A stretch of 57,124 nt of DNA from positions 1-57,124 of IMG/VR virus record IMGVR_UViG_3300025051_000002; one strand, written 5' to 3'. The DNA comes from a virus. The notes under the pieces were generated by a model that was given only the letters and a program-made list of their open reading frames with translations, was not told where the DNA came from and ran no database searches. Of the stretch, positions 3,101-48,646 are shown in pieces. Every line of letters begins with the position of its first letter. Positions within the stretch are counted from its first letter, which is position 1. Both the position numbers and the translations under genes were made by a program.

Positions 3101-6100
3101 ACCGTAAGTCATGGACTCTTCCACTAATTTACTAAACCTATTTTTAGCATTTGCTGTTATTTCTACATTGGATATAGCGGCAGCCATATCATTTAATTCC
3201 TTTTCTAATTCTTCAGCCATTTCAAGTTTAAGCATCTGTTCTTGCATATCAGCGGCCTGTTTGTTTATGACTTGCGCCTGCTGTTTATAGACTTCTTTCA
3301 TATCTTTTATGGCTTGTTCCACTTTTTTCTTTTCAGCATCAACATCCAATACTTTGGATTTTACTTCTGTTCCTTGAAGTATTTTATCGGTTGTAGCATT
3401 TTTAATAGCCTGCTCATTAAGGGTATTAAATATTTTTTGTGCTGATGATGTGTTTTTCTGTATCAAATCCGCTATAAGGGTGGACTCAGCGGCAGATTTT
3501 TTAGAAGCTGTTGCTATCTCAGTAAGTTTTTCATTACTTTCGGCTAGATAACCTGCCATAGTAGCCGCAGCTGCTGTGGCTAGTACTTGTGCAGGTCTAT
3601 TAATGTCTGGGTCTGTTATTGGGCCAGCAACAGCACCGCCTGTGGCGAAAGTTGGTAATTTGCCATATTCATTAATGTAGTCTAGCTTACTTTGACCCAA
3701 ATGTTTGGCAGAGTCGGCCTTGATTATATATTCACCGTTACTCACCCTAGCTAATATATCGTCTGATGTACCAGTACCTTCGCCCGCTATTGGACCGCCA
3801 GTAGCCATTTTAAAATTAACAGCATCTAATAATTTTTTTAAATCATCTGGTAAATTTAAAGTGGCCTCTTCACCCTTGCCTACTTTAATTTTAGACAAAG
3901 TAGTTACAGCTTTATGTACCTCAGGATATTTTTCCTTTAATACATCCAAAGCCATTTCCTCGGACCCTTTAAGTACATCAGATAACTCAGGGTAATCTTT
4001 AAGTATATCATTAACTTTACGTAATAAATCGGCTTTGTTTTTAAGTTCGTCTTTGCTTTCTATCAAACTGTTTTTAACGGCACCACCAGTAGCAAAACCT
4101 GTTAAATCTTCTGGATTATGTGTTTTACTGAATTTATCCAATCTGGCATAACCAGCGCGTCTAGCAGTTGCAGCATCTAGTACATACTCGTCTTTACTTA
4201 ATTTTGCATTAATACTATCAGAAGTAGGAGTACCTTCACCAAACACTCTGCCGCCATCAGCGAAACCGTACTGTGTTTTATTTTTTTCATAGTCTTCATA
4301 AAAGTTTTTTTCAGCCCGTTTAAGTTTTATGGCCTGTGATAAAGAGGGTGCCTCACCAGTGTTTGCTACACCAGTGGCTACATCTTTTAACACTTTACCA
4401 TAATTTTTAGTGGCCTCTGAAAGATCTGTTCCCAATAGTTTACTAAAAACTAATAAAGCAGCATAAGTGGCTACGGTACCTGCACCTAGTTTCTTTATAG
4501 TGTCGTCCGCAAAGCCAAGACTTTTAGCAAATTCCATAATTGCTGTTTTTGACGCAGTCATAGTAGTAACAGCGCCATATAAAGTAGCTTTTGCTGCGGT
4601 ATCTTCTCTGGATGTAGTAAGTGTTTTTTCTTGTGTTTTTAGGTCTTCTATTAACCCTTTATTTTGATTAACAGCGGGCTTGGCTTCTTCTGCCGCGAGT
4701 TGTGCCCTTAATACTTGAAGCTGTTCATCTAATTTCTTAACTGTTGCGTTTTCGCCAGCTTTTTGAAAAGCGGAAGCAACACTGGCTGCGGCAGTGGCTT
4801 TCATTACAGTTTTATCATCAATAAACTGTGTTTGTTGATTTGCTGTTTGTAATTTATTTATGGCTTCCACATCTGCAGTGAACGTTGGTTTGTTTGGAAC
4901 AGTTTTTAAACCAAACCACTTACTTTCTTCTGGTACGACATCCTTCATTTGTGTTACAAAATCACGGAAATCTAGACCAGAAAACATTCGTTGAGAAGCT
5001 TCTGTTGCTGTGTAGTTTTTAGCACCAAAAACATTCTGGCTACCTATTTCTTTAAGTGTTCTATCTACCCCTAATTGAGATGTTAAATTTTTAGTCATAA
5101 CATCTAGAACTTTATTGGCTTCTATCACCATATCGGAATTGCCGGTGGCTGACGCTCTATCGCGCATTTCAGCTACACGCTCTAGTCCAGTTAGTAAATC
5201 TTGTGGTGAACTAGCAGACATATATTTTTCTAACTGTTTATCAAGTTCCCCTGGACTACCTAAAGCCATTAAAATGTCTTCAAGCTTAGTAACAGTATCC
5301 GCAGTATTAGTAGCTACCCTAGAGGTTTCTATTTTTAATTCAGCGTACCCTGTGTCACCTGTTCTAGCAACAGTTTCAGTAAAGTTTTGCATTTCGTCCT
5401 TAGTTAGCACAGAACCAAAGCCTTTTGATACAGCAGCTATGCTATCAAGTGCCACAAGAGCTTTATCGGAGGAGTACATGCCCTCTGACGCACCTTGTTT
5501 TTGTATATCTAATTCTTTTAGTTGAGCGGCTAAGTTTCTGTAATCCTCTGAGCCTATTAAAGTACGTTGTTGAACAGTCAGGTCTTTATACTTAGGCCCG
5601 CCCGTATCAAAAGTGTCTAATCCCTCAGATATACCTTTTAAATAACCTGTGGTGCCTTTAAATACTTCTTGACGGCTACGTTCAACAGCTATGTTTTCTT
5701 CAATTGCTCTTTTGCCAGATTCAAATGTTTTAGTTAAATCGGCCAATACAGCTCTATATTGCATTACCACTTGATTATTTTTTAATATAGTAGTTAGGTT
5801 TTCTAACTCTTTATATAAGTCATTAGCTATGGTAACACTGCCTTCATCCAAACCTTCTACTTTTAATTTATCTAAGTCCTCCATGTAACTTCTAAATTTA
5901 ATCATAGGTTTAGCGTAATACTCTTCAAAATCTTTTTTCCATGATTTTTGGAATGGAGATTCACCAAAACCTTTGCCTGTAGAAGCGGTAGGAGTAAACC
6001 CTTTACCAGATTGTAGCAGAGTGGTTGTTGCTATGTCACTAAAAAAGCGCTCCCCTAAATCAAATTCCTTTTTGAAATCTTTTGCAGATATGGCCCTAAT

Positions 6101-9100
6101 ACCCGCGCCGGCGCCGGCTACAAATTCATTAAGTATCTCTATTTTGTCTGTGATCTCATCTTGTATATGATTGGCAGGAAAGATGTTTTCAACTAATTGC
6201 TGCATGTCTTTATCAAAAGCACGCTCTTCCACTTTTAGTGTTTTTGTATTAAAGTATTGTGCAACCCACTCAAATACACCATCCGAGGTTTCTTTGAGTT
6301 TAACTATTGCTTGTTTGCCCGCCATATTATACTTTGCAGCCACGTCATCCATAAATAGTACTATATCGTTATTAAGCACTTTACCTTGGCGTTCAAAAAG
6401 ACCTGCGGACTCTAATTTACCCTTAGTTAATTCTTTTGTAAAATCTAATGATTTAGCAGAGGGCAGGGCACGCTGCATAACAGTTTGCCCTAAAACATCC
6501 TGCCAATTAATTTTACCTTTAAGGCCGGCTATATTTAGTCTGGGTTCCATGTTAAGTATAACATCATACCCTTCTTTTAATCTGGGGTCAGCAAATATTT
6601 TAGCAATCTCATTTGGATCTAATCCCTTAGTATTAATGTTGCCTAATACATTACTAAATTCCTTATAAGTAGCCGCGTAATCATTTCTAAGCGCCTTTAA
6701 TGTCTCTTGATATTTTTTAATATCTTTATCCACAGCAGAAGACATAGGCGATTTTGCTTTTATTGATAGCAAATTGTTTAACTGTGCGGTTACTTCAGCA
6801 ATAGCTTTGGCGGGGGCCACTTTAATACCCTTAGCAAGCATTTCTCCTATAATAGGCACCTCACTCGCTATATCTTTAATCATTTTTTTAGTGTTTTCAG
6901 ACCCACCTGTTTTGGTTAAATCCTCTATAAATTTGGAAGCCACGTCTACTTCCGATTCCGCCAGTTGTTTAGTTCTGGATTTATCCAGTACTTTAAAATA
7001 CTCGTCAAAATTAGTGCTGGCTTTAAGCACCGCATTGCCTACTTTATCATAACCTAACACCAGGTTACTATTAGATTCTGCTAATTGATTTGCTAAACTT
7101 ATTACATCTTCTTGTGCTCTACCTAATGTAATTATAGGAGCTTCATAAGTGTTTAAAGATTTTCTACGTTCTTTGGTGGCGGGATCATTTAATTTATTTA
7201 AATCCTCTATTTTGCTTTGTAAAACATCATAGGAAGCCGCCATATTTTTAATATTAGTAAGATTATCTTCTTGAATACTACGCATACTATACATAGCATT
7301 TGCGTAATCTTGTGCAGATTGAGTCATCCTACCATATTGATCCCCTAGTACTTTTATTGCCGGTACTAATGCTGCTATTGTGGTTAGTAATGGGGCAACC
7401 GCGGCTATAAAGGAAGTATCGTCCGTAGCTAAATTTTCAGTTAACTTTTTGCCTATATCACCGAGTGAATCACCAAAACCTTTTACAGCCATACCTCCTA
7501 AATAGGAACCCATACCAGCTACTTCGGCGCCCATGGCCAAACCACCAGAAACTAATTTCTTTAGTGCTTGATGTATACCCAGCTCTTTAACTGTTTTTTC
7601 TATGTCTTCTTTGGTCATACTATTACGTTTTCTAATAGTTTCAATAGTCTCCCCTATACCAGCGGTACTACTAAGTTTAGTCCCTACTGTTTTTCCGGCA
7701 GCCCCGAATGAGGCTATTCCTTTACCTGTGGTAGAAACACTATCAGCAACAAAACTATTAAATACTTTACCTACTTCTTGTAGTTTAAAGGACAACCTGC
7801 CAAAAGAGGAATGAAAATCTGATAATTTAGTCCCTCTGGTTACGTCAGTCTTTCCGCCACTAGCATCCGTAGTAGTAAATTTACCTAATGTTTTAAGACC
7901 GGCAGTGGCTAATTTACCGCCGCCTAAACCAAATAATTCATATTTAGTTTTAGCTAACTCTTTAGTAAATTGTTCTCCGGCCCCAGATATACCTAGAAAG
8001 TCCTTACCTCCAGCAAGCATGTCACCTAAGGATTCGGCTAGTTGCTGTCCCTTAGTCATATAGGTCAGTAAGGCCACAAAAGCAGCGCCGGCCGCTTTGA
8101 TAGGATCAGGTATAGCAGACAGTGTTTCTAAAAATGTTTTAACTCCACTTAAACCTATTTTAAATGCCGGCAAAGCTACTTTACCGATAGACATCTGTAG
8201 TTCTACTAAAGCAACTTTGGTTTGTTCGAGCTGTTTTCTATAAGTACCCATTAATTCAGCATTACGTCTTTCTGCGGAGCCTTTGGAATTCATACTCTCT
8301 TTGGTGGCACGTAAAGCTTGATCCCAGTTATCCATTAAAGCTATGAGAGAGTTATATTGTCTGGTACCACCAAGTGCTTGGGAGGTAGCCAATTTTTGGG
8401 CGTTACTAAGGTCTTTCCATTTTTTGCTTAGATCATCTAAAACACTAAAACCAGATCTTAACTGTCCAGTAGATTCCATGACAGGAATACCTAATTTACC
8501 CAGCTGCTCTGGCCCTTTTTCGGCAGAAAGTCTACGTAAAATAAATCTAAGAGAAGTACCTACTTCTTTACCTGATTGTCTTGTAGTTGAACCGATAGCG
8601 GCAACAATACCATTTAATTGATCAAAAGTAACACCAGCAATTTTGGCTGCCGAGGCGGACTTTTGAATAGCATTGGCTAAGTCACCAGCAGTAATAGCGC
8701 TCTTGGCTTCAACCTCACTCCAAGCATCTAAAAAGCGCATAGCACTATTACCTTCTTCTTGGTAAATTTTCATGGCTGATGTTAAAGCTTCAGTAGCTTC
8801 TGATGCTTTTAATGTAGTAACATTAGCAGCTAAGGTAGATACCTTAGTTCTATCTATTATTTCTGCTTGTGTTAAACCTTGCTGTGCAAAAACATTCATA
8901 GATTGTAATACATCTGTTATACCAACACCATATTGTTTGGCGAAGGTAACCGCGGCCGCTGATAAACCATTTATATCAGAAGACAGAGGATTTAACATCA
9001 TTTTAAGTGTGGCTAAACTATACTCTATTTCAGCTAAGGTACTAATAGCTTGTTTGAGTTGCGCAAAACCTCCGTACACTACGGTAGAAGCAGCACCCCA

Positions 9101-21122: not shown

Positions 21123-22145
21123 TTAACTCCGGCGAGTGCGCTTTTTAATGTCCGTCCTATCTTTTATTTTTTGTGCTTCTTTGGGTTTATCATACTTTAT
21201 ATCTTGGTATAAATCATTAGATTGCGTTATTATGACCTCTTCTTTACTAAAAGCGGACATTTTGCCTTTATTAAACTTATTACTTTTTTTAGCCGCGTTT
21301 TCTTTGGTACGCTCATTATAGTAATCAGTCATGTAAGCATCTAGTGCATCATCGTCCTCTATTATACTATCTGGTGGTCTATCTTCAGGCATCATTTCGT
21401 ATATGTTAGAATAATAACTTGACCAATATATTAAATTAAGCTGATCATTAGAGTACTCAACTGTCGGTATACCAAATAAAGACTCAGTAACTTTTTGGCT
21501 ATGTACATAACGTATACGCCATAAATTGTGTCTTGCAATAAATCTAATTGTCTTCATTGGGATGCCATGATAAAAATGTAGAAAAGCATTCATAACTTTA
21601 ATTTTAAAATTTATATTTTTTTCTAAAACTAAACTATCTACATTATCCCAATAATGCTTATCGCCTTGTTCTGTGTATGCACAAGCCCAACATAAATAAT
21701 GATGTCTTTCTTCATCTGCCTTTGTTTCGGCGGACATGATTAACCTAGAATTCTTTTTATACTCTATTTCATTTATCTGATCTTTAATTTTATTGATAAG
21801 CTTTTTAATTCTATCTGCATTAGCTTTTACTTTGGTAGTTTTAGACAGAAGCGCTTCTTGGGCCTCTAATTGTGATTTTAGTTTGGCAACTTTTGTTATA
21901 TCTTCTTCTGTATATAAACCACGCTCGCTTAGTAATTTTTCTAATTCGGTTATAGAGTATAAGCCTTCATTGATTGCTTGCTTATAAGATCTCTCATAAA
22001 CCAGTGTAGCTCTAAGACGTATTTCAGAAGTTGGTTGCTTAAATATTAAGTATACCTCTTCTGAACCTTTAGTAATGTTTACTATTTCCTTTCCTGTGAA
22101 AACCTTAAGTAGATAACTATCCACCTCTTCATAAGATAGTTCCAT
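21123..22145 (-). CDS. Tail assembly chaperone, downstream paralogue
   Basis: A 340-residue protein directly before the tape measure, the canonical position of tail assembly chaperones, which coat the tape measure before tube polymerisation. Its middle matches the upstream neighbour: a Y...(I/V)-x-EG segment, a helix ending RRG/ERG plus I/L-(G/Y), a long Glu/Lys coiled coil (about 85-130), then YWDNVDSL against VWENYDAF. The C-terminus is highly charged and Lys-rich (ends KKRTRRS). It has its own ATG with AAAGG upstream. Chaperone pairs in phages usually arise by ribosomal frameshift; here the second is an independent gene. The chaperone role is inferred from position and paralogy. Confidence 0.7.
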   Translation of the reverse strand: MELSYEEVDSYLLKVFTGKEIVNITKGSEEVYLIFKQPTSEIRLRATLVYERSYKQAINEGLYSITELEKLLSERGLYTEEDITKVAKLKSQLEAQEALLSKTTKVKANADRIKKLINKIKDQINEIEYKKNSRLIMSAETKADEERHHYLCWACAYTEQGDKHYWDNVDSLVLEKNINFKIKVMNAFLHFYHGIPMKTIRFIARHNLWRIRYVHSQKVTESLFGIPTVEYSNDQLNLIYWSSYYSNIYEMMPEDRPPDSIIEDDDALDAYMTDYYNERTKENAAKKSNKFNKGKMSAFSKEEVIITQSNDLYQDIKYDKPKEAQKIKDRTDIKKRTRRS

Positions 22146-22168
22146 GCGTGGCCTTTATATATAGTTAT

Positions 22169-22190
22169 GGGGCTGCTTTTATACAGCCCC
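22169..22190 (-). terminator. Hairpin between the two chaperone genes
   Basis: A perfect 7-bp GC-rich stem (GGGGCTG / CAGCCCC) with an 8-nt AU-rich loop sits in the 62-nt gap between the chaperones. The minus-strand sequence after it is ATAACTATATATA rather than a U run, so it may attenuate transcription or stabilise the RNA end, lowering expression of the downstream gene. Confidence 0.5.
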
Positions 22191-22207
22191 TTATAACAAG
22201 CAATTCT

Positions 22208-22966
22208 TTATTTTGTTTTTTTACGATTTGTTTTTGGCTTTACAACTTCAGACTCAACAGAAGTATTGTGCTCTTCGGTAACCAGTTGTTCTTCTTTAAG
22301 TTCGTCAACAAGTTCTTCTTCTGCTGCTGCTTTAGCTGCCTCTAAGGCAGCCCTAGCTCTGGTCATGAGATCTTCTTCTACCTCTTTCATAGCCATAGCT
22401 TCCGGAGACTTTTCCATAAAGTTTGAATCAAGTCCTTGCAGGAACAACATTACTTCGAAACGTGCTCTCATTGCTAGATCTTTATTCTTTGACTTTAAAA
22501 AAGCATCGTAGTTTTCCCACACCCTTTTACCATTAGCGTCTTTGGTAATACTTGAAGTTAGATGTTCCAGTCTGGAATCATCAGCCATCTGTTCACAGGT
22601 ATTTGATAACGGCCCGTTTAAACGTTGGTTCCATTGGAAGAGTTCTTCTCTGGCTATGGATACTTCTACCGCCAAGTTTCTTTTGTCTTCCATTGTTTCT
22701 GCTGAGTCAAGTTGGTCTATCTTGGAGCGTAGGTCTGCAATAAGCTCTTGGGCTCTTTGTTCGAACTCAGGACCAATAATGCCTCTACGCATAAGAATGT
22801 CTTGCATTTCTGCAGCAGTTGTTATGCCCTCTACCAAACATTTAGTGTATGTTTTGCTGTATTGCCAGTCGGCGCCGCGGATGTCTTCTGCGGTGGGGGA
22901 TGAGATAAAATATTCGGTGGTGCCATCAGCACCCTTGAAGTTACGATCTATGGTGTTATCGCTCAT
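22208..22966 (-). CDS. Tail assembly chaperone, upstream paralogue
   Basis: A 252-residue acidic protein between tail tube and tape measure. An N-terminal beta-rich segment is followed by a helix (EGITTAAEMQDILMRRGI), a coiled coil (about 70-115), a conserved VWENYDAFL, and an Ala/Glu-rich tail ending in a Lys-rich patch. AAAGGAG lies before the ATG. Position and similarity to the next gene indicate a lambda gpG-like chaperone role. A run of seven adenines near its 3' end looks slippery, but both shifted frames stop before reaching the next gene. Confidence 0.72.
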   Translation of the reverse strand: MSDNTIDRNFKGADGTTEYFISSPTAEDIRGADWQYSKTYTKCLVEGITTAAEMQDILMRRGIIGPEFEQRAQELIADLRSKIDQLDSAETMEDKRNLAVEVSIAREELFQWNQRLNGPLSNTCEQMADDSRLEHLTSSITKDANGKRVWENYDAFLKSKNKDLAMRARFEVMLFLQGLDSNFMEKSPEAMAMKEVEEDLMTRARAALEAAKAAAEEELVDELKEEQLVTEEHNTSVESEVVKPKTNRKKTK

Positions 22967-23007: not shown

Positions 23008-23259
23008 TTACTTCCTATTATTTGAAACTTCTATAACATCCTCTGAATTGATTTTTAATACCATCTCGTATTGGTCTGATTTGTTTTTCAGATTCCTAAT
23101 ACAGTTATTACCAACTCTGAGGATTTTGGCTCTAAGTGCTTTGAACGTCCCTTGATGTTCACAAGCCACCTGAGCAAAGTCTAAAGCAGATTCAAATAGT
23201 CTTGTCACTTCTTTTTCTATTTCTCTTTTGAATCTATCCCTGCTCTTTAAATTATCCAT
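23008..23259 (-). CDS. Small helical protein between tail tube and chaperones
   Basis: An 83-residue, charged, mostly helical protein (MDNLKSRDRFKREIEKEV...). A longer frame exists upstream, but the ATG at 23259 is chosen because GGAGG and AAAGGA lie just before it, and the extra codons overlap the hairpin after the tail tube gene. No recognised domain. Position suggests a tail assembly factor. Confidence 0.6.
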   Translation of the reverse strand: MDNLKSRDRFKREIEKEVTRLFESALDFAQVACEHQGTFKALRAKILRVGNNCIRNLKNKSDQYEMVLKINSEDVIEVSNNRK

Positions 23260-23283
23260 TCCTTTAATCCTCCAAATATATAA

Positions 23284-23307
23284 GGGGTGAGGTATTACCC
23301 CCACCCC
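23284..23307 (-). terminator. Terminator-like hairpin after the tail tube gene
   Basis: The stem GGGGTG/CACCCC extends with GGT/ACC around a short bulge and an ATTA loop, followed on the minus strand by TTATATATTT. It fits a partial terminator below the abundant tail tube message. Confidence 0.5.
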
Positions 23308-23324: not shown

Positions 23325-24938
23325 TTAACCATTACGTCTTACTTTATAGTCGCCGGTAATATGTGTAATATCGATATCACCTTTAACTACATAAAGGTCA
23401 TTGGTTGATCTGAAACCAAAAGTCTGAGTCATATTAGCACCCATATCAAGTGTTGAGCCCTCATCAGTAATCTTAAGGTGTTCAACGATAATGGTTTTAA
23501 GTGCATACTCACGGTCGCCCGCAGCATATGTACCCATAACACCGTTATTCCAGTAATTCTGACCAATAAGATCGGAGCCGGCTCTAACAGTTCTAACATA
23601 ACCTGTACCCTTAGCTTCCTCATCGGTTTGAGCATAAACTTTAACAACAAGTTTAAGATCTTCAGAGGCCATAAGGTCAGCTAAATTGATGTCTTCCAAA
23701 GAGTCCGCATCAAACTCCGCAAGACGGTTGGCTACTTTTGACCAGTTCTCCAAGTCACCGGCTGTAGAATCTACAGTTACAGTGATAGGAATAGGCAGCG
23801 TAAGGGGTCTATCATAAGGCCCTAAATGACCAAGCTCTGATAGAGGCTCACGTGTAAGGTCAGAAGAAATAGTACAACCAGTCAAACGCCAAGCAATATC
23901 CCACTCAGCGGCATCATTGGCTACGATATAAACTGCAACCTGACCCTGACGAAGAGCGCCCAGAAAATCAGGCCTTGATGTAGCGTCAAGTACTTGGAAA
24001 TAAGTATTTTCGGTTGTATTGCCATAGCCATTGGCGGCGTACAACATTTCTAATCTGTCCCCAGCACCAAATGTAGTGCCTGTCGGAAAAGTAATTACAT
24101 GTCCTGTACTGTTATATACAAACTTAGACGCTCTAGCAGCTGCTTCTTCAGCCGCAGCTAAGGCAGCTACCTGTGCTTCAGTCATAACAGCTACATTTAC
24201 CATCTCGTTGGCGCTAGCATCGTACCAAGTTACCGCTGGAGAACCGTTATCATCTTTACGTAAGAACCCAGGGTTTGCCGATGAAAGCTCGGCTACTGCA
24301 TAAGCTCCAGCAGATAAAGTTGTGGAGGTCTCTGAACCGGTTGTAAAAGTGAAAGTATCCATGTTTACAAAGCGACCGGCATTCAGAAGCCACATCTTGT
24401 TATCGGTTTCAGCGCCGTAGTTCTCAGTAGCGTTAGCACCGGTGGTGTAACTAAATTCGAGGCTATTAACATAAACTTCGTCCATAAACAGAGTCTGATC
24501 TATGTTATTAGCAAGTGTACCAATAGAGCACTCGTCCTGAACAGGAGCCCAAATTGTAACACCGGGTAAGTTACCACATACGATTGAAAAGTCAGCCAGA
24601 GAAACACCATGTAGATAGGTGCTTGTTTCTGCAAGCTGAGTACCACTTACAACAACTAAATTACCATTTGTACTTGTAGCAGTAGCAGACATTGCTGCTT
24701 TTGCAGGTGAAACCTGTGCTAGTGTAGCCAGTGTTTTGACATCACCGAAGTCATTTGTGTTCAAGGTCACTGCCACTGCTGGAACGTCATCGACAACGTC
24801 AATGATATCCAGATGACCGAGTTCAAAAATATCTTCACTGGTAAATGTCGTGGTGCTTCCTAAAGATTGTACACGGTAAAGAACCTCACCGTTACACCAC
24901 ACCGATTGGCTCGCATAAATTATTCTATTCCTTGCCAT
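23325..24938 (-). CDS. Major tail tube protein
   Basis: A 537-residue, beta-rich, Ala/Thr/Gly-rich protein with GGAGG before its ATG. It starts MARNRIIYASQSVWCNGEVL, with recurring ELGHL/FELGHLD phrases near residues 40 and 360 that look like two copies of one tube-type domain. It sits immediately before the chaperones and tape measure, as major tail proteins do. No partner sheath or tube gene is nearby, so I read it as a siphovirus tube rather than a contractile sheath. Length exceeds a minimal tube protein, consistent with a duplicated or decorated domain. Confidence 0.72.
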   Translation of the reverse strand: MARNRIIYASQSVWCNGEVLYRVQSLGSTTTFTSEDIFELGHLDIIDVVDDVPAVAVTLNTNDFGDVKTLATLAQVSPAKAAMSATATSTNGNLVVVSGTQLAETSTYLHGVSLADFSIVCGNLPGVTIWAPVQDECSIGTLANNIDQTLFMDEVYVNSLEFSYTTGANATENYGAETDNKMWLLNAGRFVNMDTFTFTTGSETSTTLSAGAYAVAELSSANPGFLRKDDNGSPAVTWYDASANEMVNVAVMTEAQVAALAAAEEAAARASKFVYNSTGHVITFPTGTTFGAGDRLEMLYAANGYGNTTENTYFQVLDATSRPDFLGALRQGQVAVYIVANDAAEWDIAWRLTGCTISSDLTREPLSELGHLGPYDRPLTLPIPITVTVDSTAGDLENWSKVANRLAEFDADSLEDINLADLMASEDLKLVVKVYAQTDEEAKGTGYVRTVRAGSDLIGQNYWNNGVMGTYAAGDREYALKTIIVEHLKITDEGSTLDMGANMTQTFGFRSTNDLYVVKGDIDITHITGDYKVRRNG

Positions 24939-28291: not shown

Positions 28292-29035
28292 TTAATCCTC
28301 CAAATAACTACATTTATAATTCTTATGTTGGTTTCTGTTACCCTTGGCGCATGACACCATATGGGCCGGGTTAAGTTTATGCTCCCTACAAAAAGACGCT
28401 AAACAGTCTATAAGTATAATTTCGCCTGTAGGTGTCTCTATACTGTATTTCTTGGCATTTGGATTTAAAGCCCCAATAAATCTACCTTTTAATGTAGTAG
28501 CTATTTTACTTTTAGTTTCATTATGTCTTGGTTTACCATAATTAGGGTTGTTAGCCCCAACATACATCCCAGAGTTCTTCCTTGTTTCTGACATCTTTCT
28601 TTTGGCGGACTCTGTATGTTTTCTGCCTTTTTTAGACGCACTAATCTTTTGTCTGGCTTCTTCTGATAGAATGTTACCGTAAGCGGGATGATCGGAGCCT
28701 TTTAATCCGTACATTGCATTTAACTCGCCTACAGCCCCTATACTATTAGTTCCACCTTCAGTCATATTGTACCCTTTGTTAAAACTATTATACTCATTTA
28801 TATAGTATATTTCCTTTTCATTCAGCGCTTCTTTATTATAAGCACTATCTAACTTAGACCAAATAAAATTGGCCGGGCCGTGTTTTAATAAAGCTTGATA
28901 CAGTTTATACGATTTACGTTTCATGGCATTTAAATGTTGTGTTTTACGTCTTGCCAAAGTATGCGTAGTTTGACCTATATATACTTTACCATTAATTACA
29001 TTAGTTACTTTATATATTATACCGTAAATATTCAT
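28292..29035 (-). CDS. GIY-YIG homing endonuclease with NUMOD motifs
   Basis: A 247-residue free-standing endonuclease. The GIY-YIG domain is complete: GIIYKVTNVINGKVYIGQT at 5-23, ARRKTQH with the catalytic Arg, and NEKEIYYINEY with the catalytic Glu. Several DNA-binding NUMOD3-like repeats follow (NAMYG, HPAYG, EEARQKISASKKG, NPNYGKPRHNETKSKI), then a C-terminal module with LASFCREHKL. It sits between an adhesin and a neck gene and supplies the ribosome site of the next gene, so it inserted without breaking it. Such genes spread by cutting unoccupied sites and carry no virion function. Confidence 0.93.
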   Translation of the reverse strand: MNIYGIIYKVTNVINGKVYIGQTTHTLARRKTQHLNAMKRKSYKLYQALLKHGPANFIWSKLDSAYNKEALNEKEIYYINEYNSFNKGYNMTEGGTNSIGAVGELNAMYGLKGSDHPAYGNILSEEARQKISASKKGRKHTESAKRKMSETRKNSGMYVGANNPNYGKPRHNETKSKIATTLKGRFIGALNPNAKKYSIETPTGEIILIDCLASFCREHKLNPAHMVSCAKGNRNQHKNYKCSYLED

Positions 29036-37136: not shown

Positions 37137-37157
37137 AGTAAACTCCAATTAATAGAA

Positions 37158-37184
37158 GGGGTTAAAATAGCACATTTTAACCCC
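37158..37184 (-). terminator. Intrinsic terminator-like hairpin
   Basis: A perfect 11-bp stem (GGGGTTAAAAT / ATTTTAACCCC) with a 5-nt loop, followed on the minus strand by TTCTATTAATT. Lies between the coiled-coil gene and the small fibre gene. Confidence 0.65.
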
Positions 37185-37210
37185 AACATAATAAGAACCA
37201 TGGATAAGCA

Positions 37211-37597: not shown

Positions 37598-37635
37598 AAT
37601 AAATCTCCTTTATTCCGTTTGTATTAATTATGAAA

Positions 37636-37653
37636 GAGGGGCTTACGCCCCTC
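37636..37653 (-). terminator. Intrinsic terminator-like hairpin
   Basis: Stem GAGGGGC / GCCCCTC with a 4-nt loop, followed on the minus strand by TTTCATAATT. It lies just below the 501-residue fibre-type gene. Confidence 0.6.
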
Positions 37654-37667
37654 CTTATTTTACACTA

Positions 37668-40146: not shown

Positions 40147-40401
40147 AAGGCCACATATAAGTATAAGGTTAATTAAAGTTATTTATATTCTATATATAGA
40201 TAGGTTACTTAATTGTACAGATATAAGATGTAAAACATTGTATTTTAACATATTACTAATTTTATAACCAACCACTTACAATTATTACATGCTTTTTGTT
40301 TGGAACTTTTGAGATAAAATGTATGCTTATACATAAAATAAAAATACCCTACACAGCACTAGTTAATGGCTGTGTAGGGTGTGTAAAACAATTATAGCAT
40401 A
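40147..40401 (-). other. Intergenic region below the major capsid gene
   Basis: A 255-nt gap. The upper end holds the capsid terminator. The rest is AT-rich with no open frame, no tRNA fold and no convincing promoter, though a new transcript for the membrane protein would have to start here. Confidence 0.5.
40346..40380 (-). terminator. Strong intrinsic terminator after the major capsid gene
   Basis: A perfect 12-bp stem (ACCCTACACAGC / GCTGTGTAGGGT) with an 11-nt loop, followed on the minus strand by a T-rich tail (ATTTTTATTTTATG). It lies about 20 bases below the capsid stop and is the best terminator in the window. Confidence 0.88.
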
Positions 40402-46883: not shown

Positions 46884-47843
46884 TTAAAATAAAGTGCTTA
46901 TAGATACACCAGCACTGTAATTGGAATCTTTGTCTAAATAAATTGTTGGTCCTATGAATAAGTTTTCCATCAAAGGAAGCGGTTTACCTACATTATATTT
47001 AACTGGGGTAAAATACATAATTTCGGTATCAGAAGCTTTGGCAGCACCAAAGGCTATGAACTGCCAGTCACTGTCAGCTTTTGTTTTACCATAACTAAAT
47101 AAACCTAAATCTAAACCTACCGCAGTAGCTGTACCAAATATACCAGAAAAACCTATTCTTGGGCTGTACCAAAATTTCTTTTCTTTTTCTTCACGTTTTG
47201 CCCAATTGTCGATAGTAAGGGCTACTGGAAATTTTTTATATGTACCATCCTCATTTTTACCAAGTGACGACCAGTGATTTTCTACCCATGCTTCGGCATA
47301 CCTTTTAGGGTTACCGTCATCATCTGTTGTTTCCACTATATCGGTTTTTATTTCTAATTTATGTGGTTCGACCGACCAACGTTCTTCACCTTGTATATTT
47401 GGACTTAATCGTACTACGGCTACTGGATACGGCTTTCCGGTGGCATCATTTAAATTAACTGTAACCTCTTCTAAGTCTCTTTTAGGATTTTCTGGGTCTT
47501 TATAAACAGTTTCTTTTGCTAGCCAATCTACTTTTCCAGAAAGTGTGGCAGTAGTTCTACCTATTTCATCTACACGTTCTTTATTTTCTTTTATAGTTTT
47601 TAATAGCACACTATTTTGGGCAACAAGTTGCTCAGTTAACTTTTTAATATCCGCATTGTTTGCGGCTACGGTAGCCACAGCAGCATTAACAGCAATATTC
47701 TCTATTGTGGTTACATCCACGGGATTTTTATCATTACCAGCGAAGCTACTTATTATTTTTGGTATCTCCATGAACAGAAACACTACAAAAGCTATTAAAG
47801 CTATTGATTTAGTTATATCAAATATATTTGAATCTATTTTCAT
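46884..47843 (-). CDS. Membrane-anchored envelope protein with beta-rich C-terminus
   Basis: A 319-residue protein. A transmembrane helix (about residues 13-33) is followed by an Asn/Ala/Lys coiled coil (about 45-105), a Pro/Glu-rich soluble segment, and a C-terminal ~100 residues of alternating aromatic strands (FWYSPRIGFSGIFG, VGLDLGLFSYG, YSAGVSISTLF) ending in Phe, as many outer-membrane barrels do. It could bridge inner and outer membranes in a spanin-like or superinfection-blocking role. Its ATG overlaps the HNH gene stop (ATGA), so it depends on that gene for translation or was displaced by its insertion. Confidence 0.5.
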   Translation of the reverse strand: MKIDSNIFDITKSIALIAFVVFLFMEIPKIISSFAGNDKNPVDVTTIENIAVNAAVATVAANNADIKKLTEQLVAQNSVLLKTIKENKERVDEIGRTTATLSGKVDWLAKETVYKDPENPKRDLEEVTVNLNDATGKPYPVAVVRLSPNIQGEERWSVEPHKLEIKTDIVETTDDDGNPKRYAEAWVENHWSSLGKNEDGTYKKFPVALTIDNWAKREEKEKKFWYSPRIGFSGIFGTATAVGLDLGLFSYGKTKADSDWQFIAFGAAKASDTEIMYFTPVKYNVGKPLPLMENLFIGPTIYLDKDSNYSAGVSISTLF

Positions 47844-48646
47844 ACTTTGAAACCAATTAGTTTGTGTATGTCTTTATGACAAGTTTTACATAAAGTTACC
47901 CCATTGTTTACATCGTATAGTATTGATGTTAAGTTGTTATCCATAATATAATTAAAAGGTATTATGTGGTGTGCTACAAGCCTACCCCCTTTTTTATCAC
48001 AATTCTGACAAGTATAATTATTATTTATAAAAACCTCTGAACGCCATTGTCTATATTCCATGCTTTTACGTACAGTTTCATTAATAGTAGATACACCCCC
48101 TTTCCAGCCAGGTGCATTTTCTCCTGAAAAATTAGGCCTCTTAACACCTTTTAATGGGTGTCCTGTATGGTTATACGGTAATCTATTAGCTTTAAGATAA
48201 TTACGCAAACCCTCATTCATAGCACTTGTATCAATTTTTTTACCATAAGCTGGATGTGCGTTGCCAGTGCGTCCATACATAGGGTTTTTACTACCAAGTT
48301 TAGATAATGAGTATCTTTTTAACATATGCGCAGATCTTACTTTACCAAGATTTCCTTTACGTGTTTTTTCAGTTGCCTCTTGTGATTTTTTTGTGCCTAA
48401 TAATGGAGATGGCTTACCCGTCTGTTTAGCAGAGACACCACAAGACTTACTACAATACATATTTTTATTGTGTAACAATCCTAAAAATGAGTCACCACAC
48501 CAACAGCACTTATCTATAAATGTATACTTATGAACAATCTTTTGTAAAGATTTACGGCCTTTTCTGGCATAAAAAATAGTGTTCAGCCATAATCCAGTGG
48601 TGATGTCATAGCTTAGTTTATTTATATTGTCCCAACATAATTTCAT
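47840..48646 (-). CDS. HNH homing endonuclease
   Basis: A 268-residue free-standing endonuclease. The N-terminal part has a Cys-pair module (CCWCGDSF, YCSKSCG), then NUMOD3-type repeats (GSKNPMYGRTGNAHPAYGKK), then a C-terminal HNH domain with CQNC, VAHHIIPF and GVTLCKTCHKDIH holding the His and zinc Cys pairs. It is wedged between two genes with ATGA overlaps on both sides, in the terminase-portal interval, a common homing location in large phages. Confidence 0.92.
   Translation of the reverse strand: MKLCWDNINKLSYDITTGLWLNTIFYARKGRKSLQKIVHKYTFIDKCCWCGDSFLGLLHNKNMYCSKSCGVSAKQTGKPSPLLGTKKSQEATEKTRKGNLGKVRSAHMLKRYSLSKLGSKNPMYGRTGNAHPAYGKKIDTSAMNEGLRNYLKANRLPYNHTGHPLKGVKRPNFSGENAPGWKGGVSTINETVRKSMEYRQWRSEVFINNNYTCQNCDKKGGRLVAHHIIPFNYIMDNNLTSILYDVNNGVTLCKTCHKDIHKLIGFKV

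Follow-up and report, generated by a model that had tools for sequence, protein, structure and literature searches.

Programmed frameshifting in the genes of tail assembly chaperones is a textbook case of recoding. In phage lambda, according to the accessible part of the source, G binds the tape measure protein and T binds the tail tube protein, in a ratio of 30:1 (PMC5009743). Adjacent chaperone gene pairs tend to be taken as probable missed frameshifts, and the T4-like phages are described as having a short gene and a separate longer gene that repeats the short form, with frameshift not used; both statements come from the accessible part of one study (PMC10885494). In our own comparison T4 gp26 and gp51 are paralogous (BLASTP 2e-6) and have PF12322 in common, and genes 26 and 51 are divergently oriented with equal Shine-Dalgarno (SD) energies of -7.9 each. 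The chaperone pair of the T4-like phages, which we take to be gp26 and gp51, was reportedly described by Vladimirov, Gautam and Davidson in 2022. A two-gene solution is already known in outline from these phages, and in the literature covered here, which consists mostly of papers outside subscription, the T4-like case is the only precedent found for the chaperones of the present group or for other two-gene systems.

In the current analysis we have identified two genes of this kind in a window that comprises the whole of a 57,124-nt virus record. The open reading frames of both were found on the minus strand with ATG starts: gene A (22208-22966, 252 aa) is a candidate short tail assembly chaperone (TAC-N, gpG-like) and gene B (21123-22145, 340 aa) a candidate long one (TAC-NC, gpGT-like). 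In the minus-strand order a probable major tail (tube) protein gene (23325-24938), assigned from position and conservation and without a match in the family scans, is followed by the 98-codon gene p98 (23008-23304) immediately 5' of A, then by A, B and the tape measure gene, which has a TTG start at 21043 and extends over 7,014 codons to position 2 and off the end of the window. The pair lies directly 5' of the confirmed tape measure gene, and its relatives keep the same position. We consider it quite probable that A and B are two tail assembly chaperones derived from an old gene duplication, with a ratio that is proposed to be set by initiation of translation.

The locus shares with lambda gpG/gpGT and with HK97 gp13 the position before the tape measure gene and the combination of a short form and a C-terminally extended long form, but the long form has its own gene here, whereas in lambda and HK97 it is a frameshift product. 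Like the T4-like pair, it consists of separate short and long paralogous genes; unlike T4, where the genes are divergent and their SD sites equal, A and B are on one strand, often abutting, with unequal SD sites. The window pair would work like both the lambda frameshift pair and the two-gene pair of the T4-like phages. Comparison of A and B with T4 gp26 and gp51 by hhalign, a weak test with single T4 sequences, found nothing, and PF12322 was absent both from the Pfam results for A and B as single sequences and from the families listed for a set of 24 B sequences.

The initial annotation had proposed that two paralogous chaperone genes with a shared helix-coil-WEN/WDN architecture occupy the place where a frameshift pair is usual, and this is borne out. 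Pairwise BLASTP aligns A with B at E 5e-9 (21% identity over 173 aa), and when 24 sequences of each family are compared as profiles with hhalign the probability is 97.3% (E 2e-11) over 164 columns, spanning residues 19-182 of A and 33-198 of B (21552-22049, minus strand). L018 and L026, the latter nearly a copy of L024, were excluded from the first alignments of A, and the truncated L005 from those of B. By sequence comparison A and B are true paralogues. The tryptophan of the WEN/WDN stretch is invariant within each family (W150 in A and W166 in B). The AF2 models, with mean pLDDT of 84 for A and 81 for B, have the same order of elements, namely a strand pair, helices of about 20, 10, 22, 29 and 17 residues, a short strand pair, the W-E/D-N stretch and one more helix.

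B comprises the domain of A and a C-terminal extension, and it is the longer protein in all 63 pairs scored. Its model has extra helices at 197-290 that are absent from A, and the B-only helical region (residues 199-290; 21276-21551, minus strand), delimited from the AF2 model and conservation, is highly conserved, including W209, W241, D264 and D265. This region is proposed to be a T-like domain that would recruit the tail tube protein. The model of A ends in a charged, Glu/Lys-rich C-terminal tail of low confidence.

Among contigs of uncultured phages the searches have identified 64 distinct A/B pairs, of which 49 have A first and 15 have B first. IMG/VR yielded 34 loci in the search with A and 79 in that with the B profile, and the GTDB genomes yielded one, located in a gammaproteobacterial MAG on a contig of 20 kb. 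When named relatives were sought by tblastn, the 15 records obtained with A were all insignificant (best E 4), and there were no hits with B, with two distant B proteins or with the tail protein. In a tree of the shared domain with 126 sequences, built by a quick method and containing some rows that are long branches, a single branch (SH-aLRT 99) parts 63 A from 63 B. Since one branch splits all A from all B, the tree places the duplication before the split into A-first and B-first orders; the duplication is older than the change of gene order.

Some of these loci carry features of their own. L018, left out of the tree and of the frame counts, has its A gene cut by a single in-frame TAG (6493-6495; L103 is the same contig) where the relatives have a Glu codon. 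The rest of the frame is intact, and the TAG may be a sequencing error, a mutation or a case of recoding. In L096 an ORF of 258 codons (4181-4957) sits between A and B. An ORF of about 115 codons, p98-like by position only, precedes A in most of the B-first relatives listed. Two group I introns (RF00028, E 2.5e-19 and 1.2e-12) at 3608-3866 and 3934-4155 of L026 separate the first 41 codons of the major tail protein gene from the remainder, and the gene is broken in the same way in L010 and L027. The structural operon of the window itself contains two probable homing endonuclease genes, a GIY-YIG-like ORF at 28292-29035 (motif recognised by eye) and an HNH ORF at 47840-48646 (phrog_8446, E 1e-15).

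The strength of the SD site was used as a proxy for initiation, with energies calculated against an E. coli-type anti-SD that may not be the host's. On this scale, with the same reservation about the host, gene A of the window has a strong site, AAAGGAG (-8.2 kcal/mol), and gene B a weak one (-3.2 kcal/mol). The SD of A is stronger than that of B in 47 of the 49 A-first pairs and in all 15 B-first pairs (62/64 in total), the exceptions being L093 and L101, the latter with strong sites on both genes; in L015 an upstream ATG of A has a strong SD site. The median of the best sites is -9.3 for A and -3.2 for B in the A-first pairs, and -8.5 and -4.2 respectively in the B-first pairs. Control genes of the same loci have values of -7.9 (n=235) in the A-first and -5.8 (n=88) in the B-first set, and the B sites are weaker than these controls (Mann-Whitney p 3e-15 and 0.001 respectively, uncorrected for relatedness). 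This conserved contrast of a strong A site and a weak B site, in both gene orders, is new here.

The SD asymmetry, as read from the sequences, points to an excess of the short form A, and differential initiation is the best candidate for the setting of the A:B ratio. B starts at most 19 nt from the stop of A in 36 of the 49 A-first pairs, a spacing that fits termination-reinitiation as described in the accessible part of the source (PMC6728339), and in most A-first phages initiation at B is probably a stop-start re-initiation. As a second sign of expression level, adaptation of codon usage to that of the tail protein gene was considered. It sets A barely apart from B, with A scoring above B in 17 of 23 cases; neither gene is separated from the tape measure gene, and the measure was dropped because this control does not differ.

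The independent start of B, to which the initial annotation had ascribed the setting of its level together with a hairpin in place of the frameshift, is upheld in part, the conserved signal being the SD contrast and not the hairpin. In the window the 62-nt gap between A and B (22146-22207) contains, between the A stop and the B start, the hairpin GGGGCTG-TATAAAAG-CAGCCCC (22169-22190, minus strand), with dG -18.9 and z -2.4 against shuffles. Hairpins are carried by all 12 of the A-first pairs with gaps of 44-89 nt, a count that leaves out L096 with its ORF in the gap and the rows L088 and L092; their sequences differ, dG ranges from -9.5 to -27.3 and z from -1.7 to -5.8, and in L020 and L023 the stem is kept with bases changed on both sides. 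One may suppose from this regularity that the hairpin, rather than the start site, sets the ratio, either by ending or stabilising part of the transcript after A or by blocking re-initiation at B, and a hairpin with a T-run is also found behind the major head protein gene (assigned by phrog_2522) at 40147-40401. We regard this as unlikely. The hairpin occurs in 12 of the 49 A-first pairs, only those with gaps of at least 44 nt, whereas 36 of the 49 are too tightly spaced to hold one; the T-run is missing from most of the hairpins listed; three gaps of the late operon of the window (40147-40401, 37598-37667 and 37149-37210) hold comparable hairpins with the chaperone genes not near; and in most pairs the SD of B is weak with or without a hairpin. 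As a general ratio device the hairpin was rejected, being absent where the genes abut and matched by similar hairpins elsewhere in the window. Since hairpins occur in other gaps too, it is an intergenic element that recurs in the operon, and in some lineages an add-on, where it may affect mRNA stability or cause partial termination.

Two further readings deny either the separateness of the two products or their identity as chaperones. A hidden programmed -1 shift or stop readthrough could make an A-B fusion as the active long form, and some of the loci would permit it: the B frame is open 4-25 nt into A in 18 of 48 A-first pairs, so that a late -1 shift could fuse A and B in those 18, B is in frame after the stop of A in 13 of 49 pairs, and A-rich codons stand at the end of A. 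In the window, however, B is in the -1 frame relative to A, and the B frame is interrupted by stops after A ends and before B starts, so a single frameshift cannot fuse the two, in agreement with the earlier claim that the window has no frameshift pair. The frame relation also varies over the A-first pairs (-1 in 30, 0 in 13 and +1 in 6), the late overlaps have no conserved feature, the +1 frame beyond the stop of A is never open for more than 44 codons, a fusion would carry the shared domain twice, and in the 15 B-first pairs the order of the genes excludes an A-to-B fusion by frameshift. Such a fusion is very improbable, and the pair is not a member of the lambda/HK97-type frameshift class. 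That A and B might be paralogous tail proteins of another role, structural or in head-tail joining, is improbable, though somewhat less so. Scans of A and B against Pfam and PHROGs matched no family above noise, named chaperone families included, no solved relative of B was found by sequence or by fold, and tail chaperones were not found among the PDB matches listed for B, a result that still leaves room for membership of the family. Against this role stand the position just 5' of the tape measure gene, the short/long architecture and the match of the A model to the HK97 tail assembly chaperone 2ob9_A (VIA-align, rank 4, rmsd 3.1, 94/107 residues), the Z of 8.1 being in the range that the tool marks as unsafe where folds are helical; the match is favoured because nearly the whole target is covered and the protein is the one expected from the gene position. 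Tail assembly chaperones are also named in 2 of the 50 viral fold matches listed for A and in 6 of the 50 listed for B, the latter all with weak E-values. With A and B taken as chaperones, the analysis names two genes that none of the family libraries used recognises.

By analogy with lambda gpG/gpGT, many copies of A would coat the tape measure protein. A few copies of B would use the shared domain as their anchor and the extension to recruit the tail tube protein, and A and B would both depart during polymerisation of the tube. Initiation would encode the excess of A over B, through the strong ribosome-binding site of A and the weak one of B. In most A-first phages the weak site would be supplied by ribosomes that finish translating A and re-initiate no more than 19 nt away; in some A-first phages a gap with a hairpin would be found instead. 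On balance we lean towards the view that a large uncultured group has fixed the stoichiometry of its chaperones by initiation, the strong/weak pair having persisted while the gene order was reversed and the length of the tape measure changed several-fold, and that this is a separately evolved, one-operon counterpart of the ratio that lambda sets by frameshift. The group is a clear exception to the reading of such pairs as missed frameshifts, with a testable rule in its place. With separate genes the ratio and each of the domains can vary independently, a freedom that a frameshift pair lacks.

The tape measure gene of the window was identified by PF10145 (E 2e-28) and phrog_4211, tail length tape measure protein (E 1e-75). 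Its frame has 7,660 codons in a near-identical phage (the record holding L001) and 7,488-8,053 codons in five complete near relatives, a sixth, L075, with an incomplete frame, being outside this range. The initial annotation had suggested that the two chaperone genes were needed for an exceptionally long tape measure. The same A/B pair accompanies frames of 1,703-3,632 codons in five B-first genomes, of 3,591 codons in the L096 genome and of 13,617 codons, with a DYDGD motif, in the L101 genome (IMGVR_UViG_3300005077_000489; L134+L135+L145). As the pair occurs with tape measures of 1,703-13,617 codons, length does not explain the two genes, and the long tape measure was rejected as their cause; the need for two genes does not come from a giant tape measure.

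A giant tape measure fused to RNA polymerase is described for the Thermus phage P23-45 in the accessible part of the source (PMC10770324). The window and its nearest relatives resemble P23-45 in having a giant tape measure with a DFDGD motif, which in the window lies at about residue 2480. They differ from it in the chaperone region, since P23-45, whose tape measure has 5,002 residues, has a single gene of 164 codons, gp95, that separates gp94 from the tape measure gene; similarity between gp95 and A was not detectable. The DFDGD/DYDGD motif is also present in the tape measures of genomes G001, G002, G003, G007, G008, G010 and G013, and DxDGD is invariant in 7/7 aligned tape measure segments, which were picked by the motif. 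Alignment of the tape measure with P23-45 gp96 by hhalign falls at the motif but is not significant (E 0.029, probability 1.7%), and the PDB matches included no polymerase. About 865 residues past DFDGD, the stretch encoded at 10112-11911 matches phrog_1706 (CRISPR/Cas system associated; E 2e-8). We take this stretch to read like a PD-(D/E)XK nuclease, and one tape measure protein would then carry putative signatures of both a polymerase and a nuclease.
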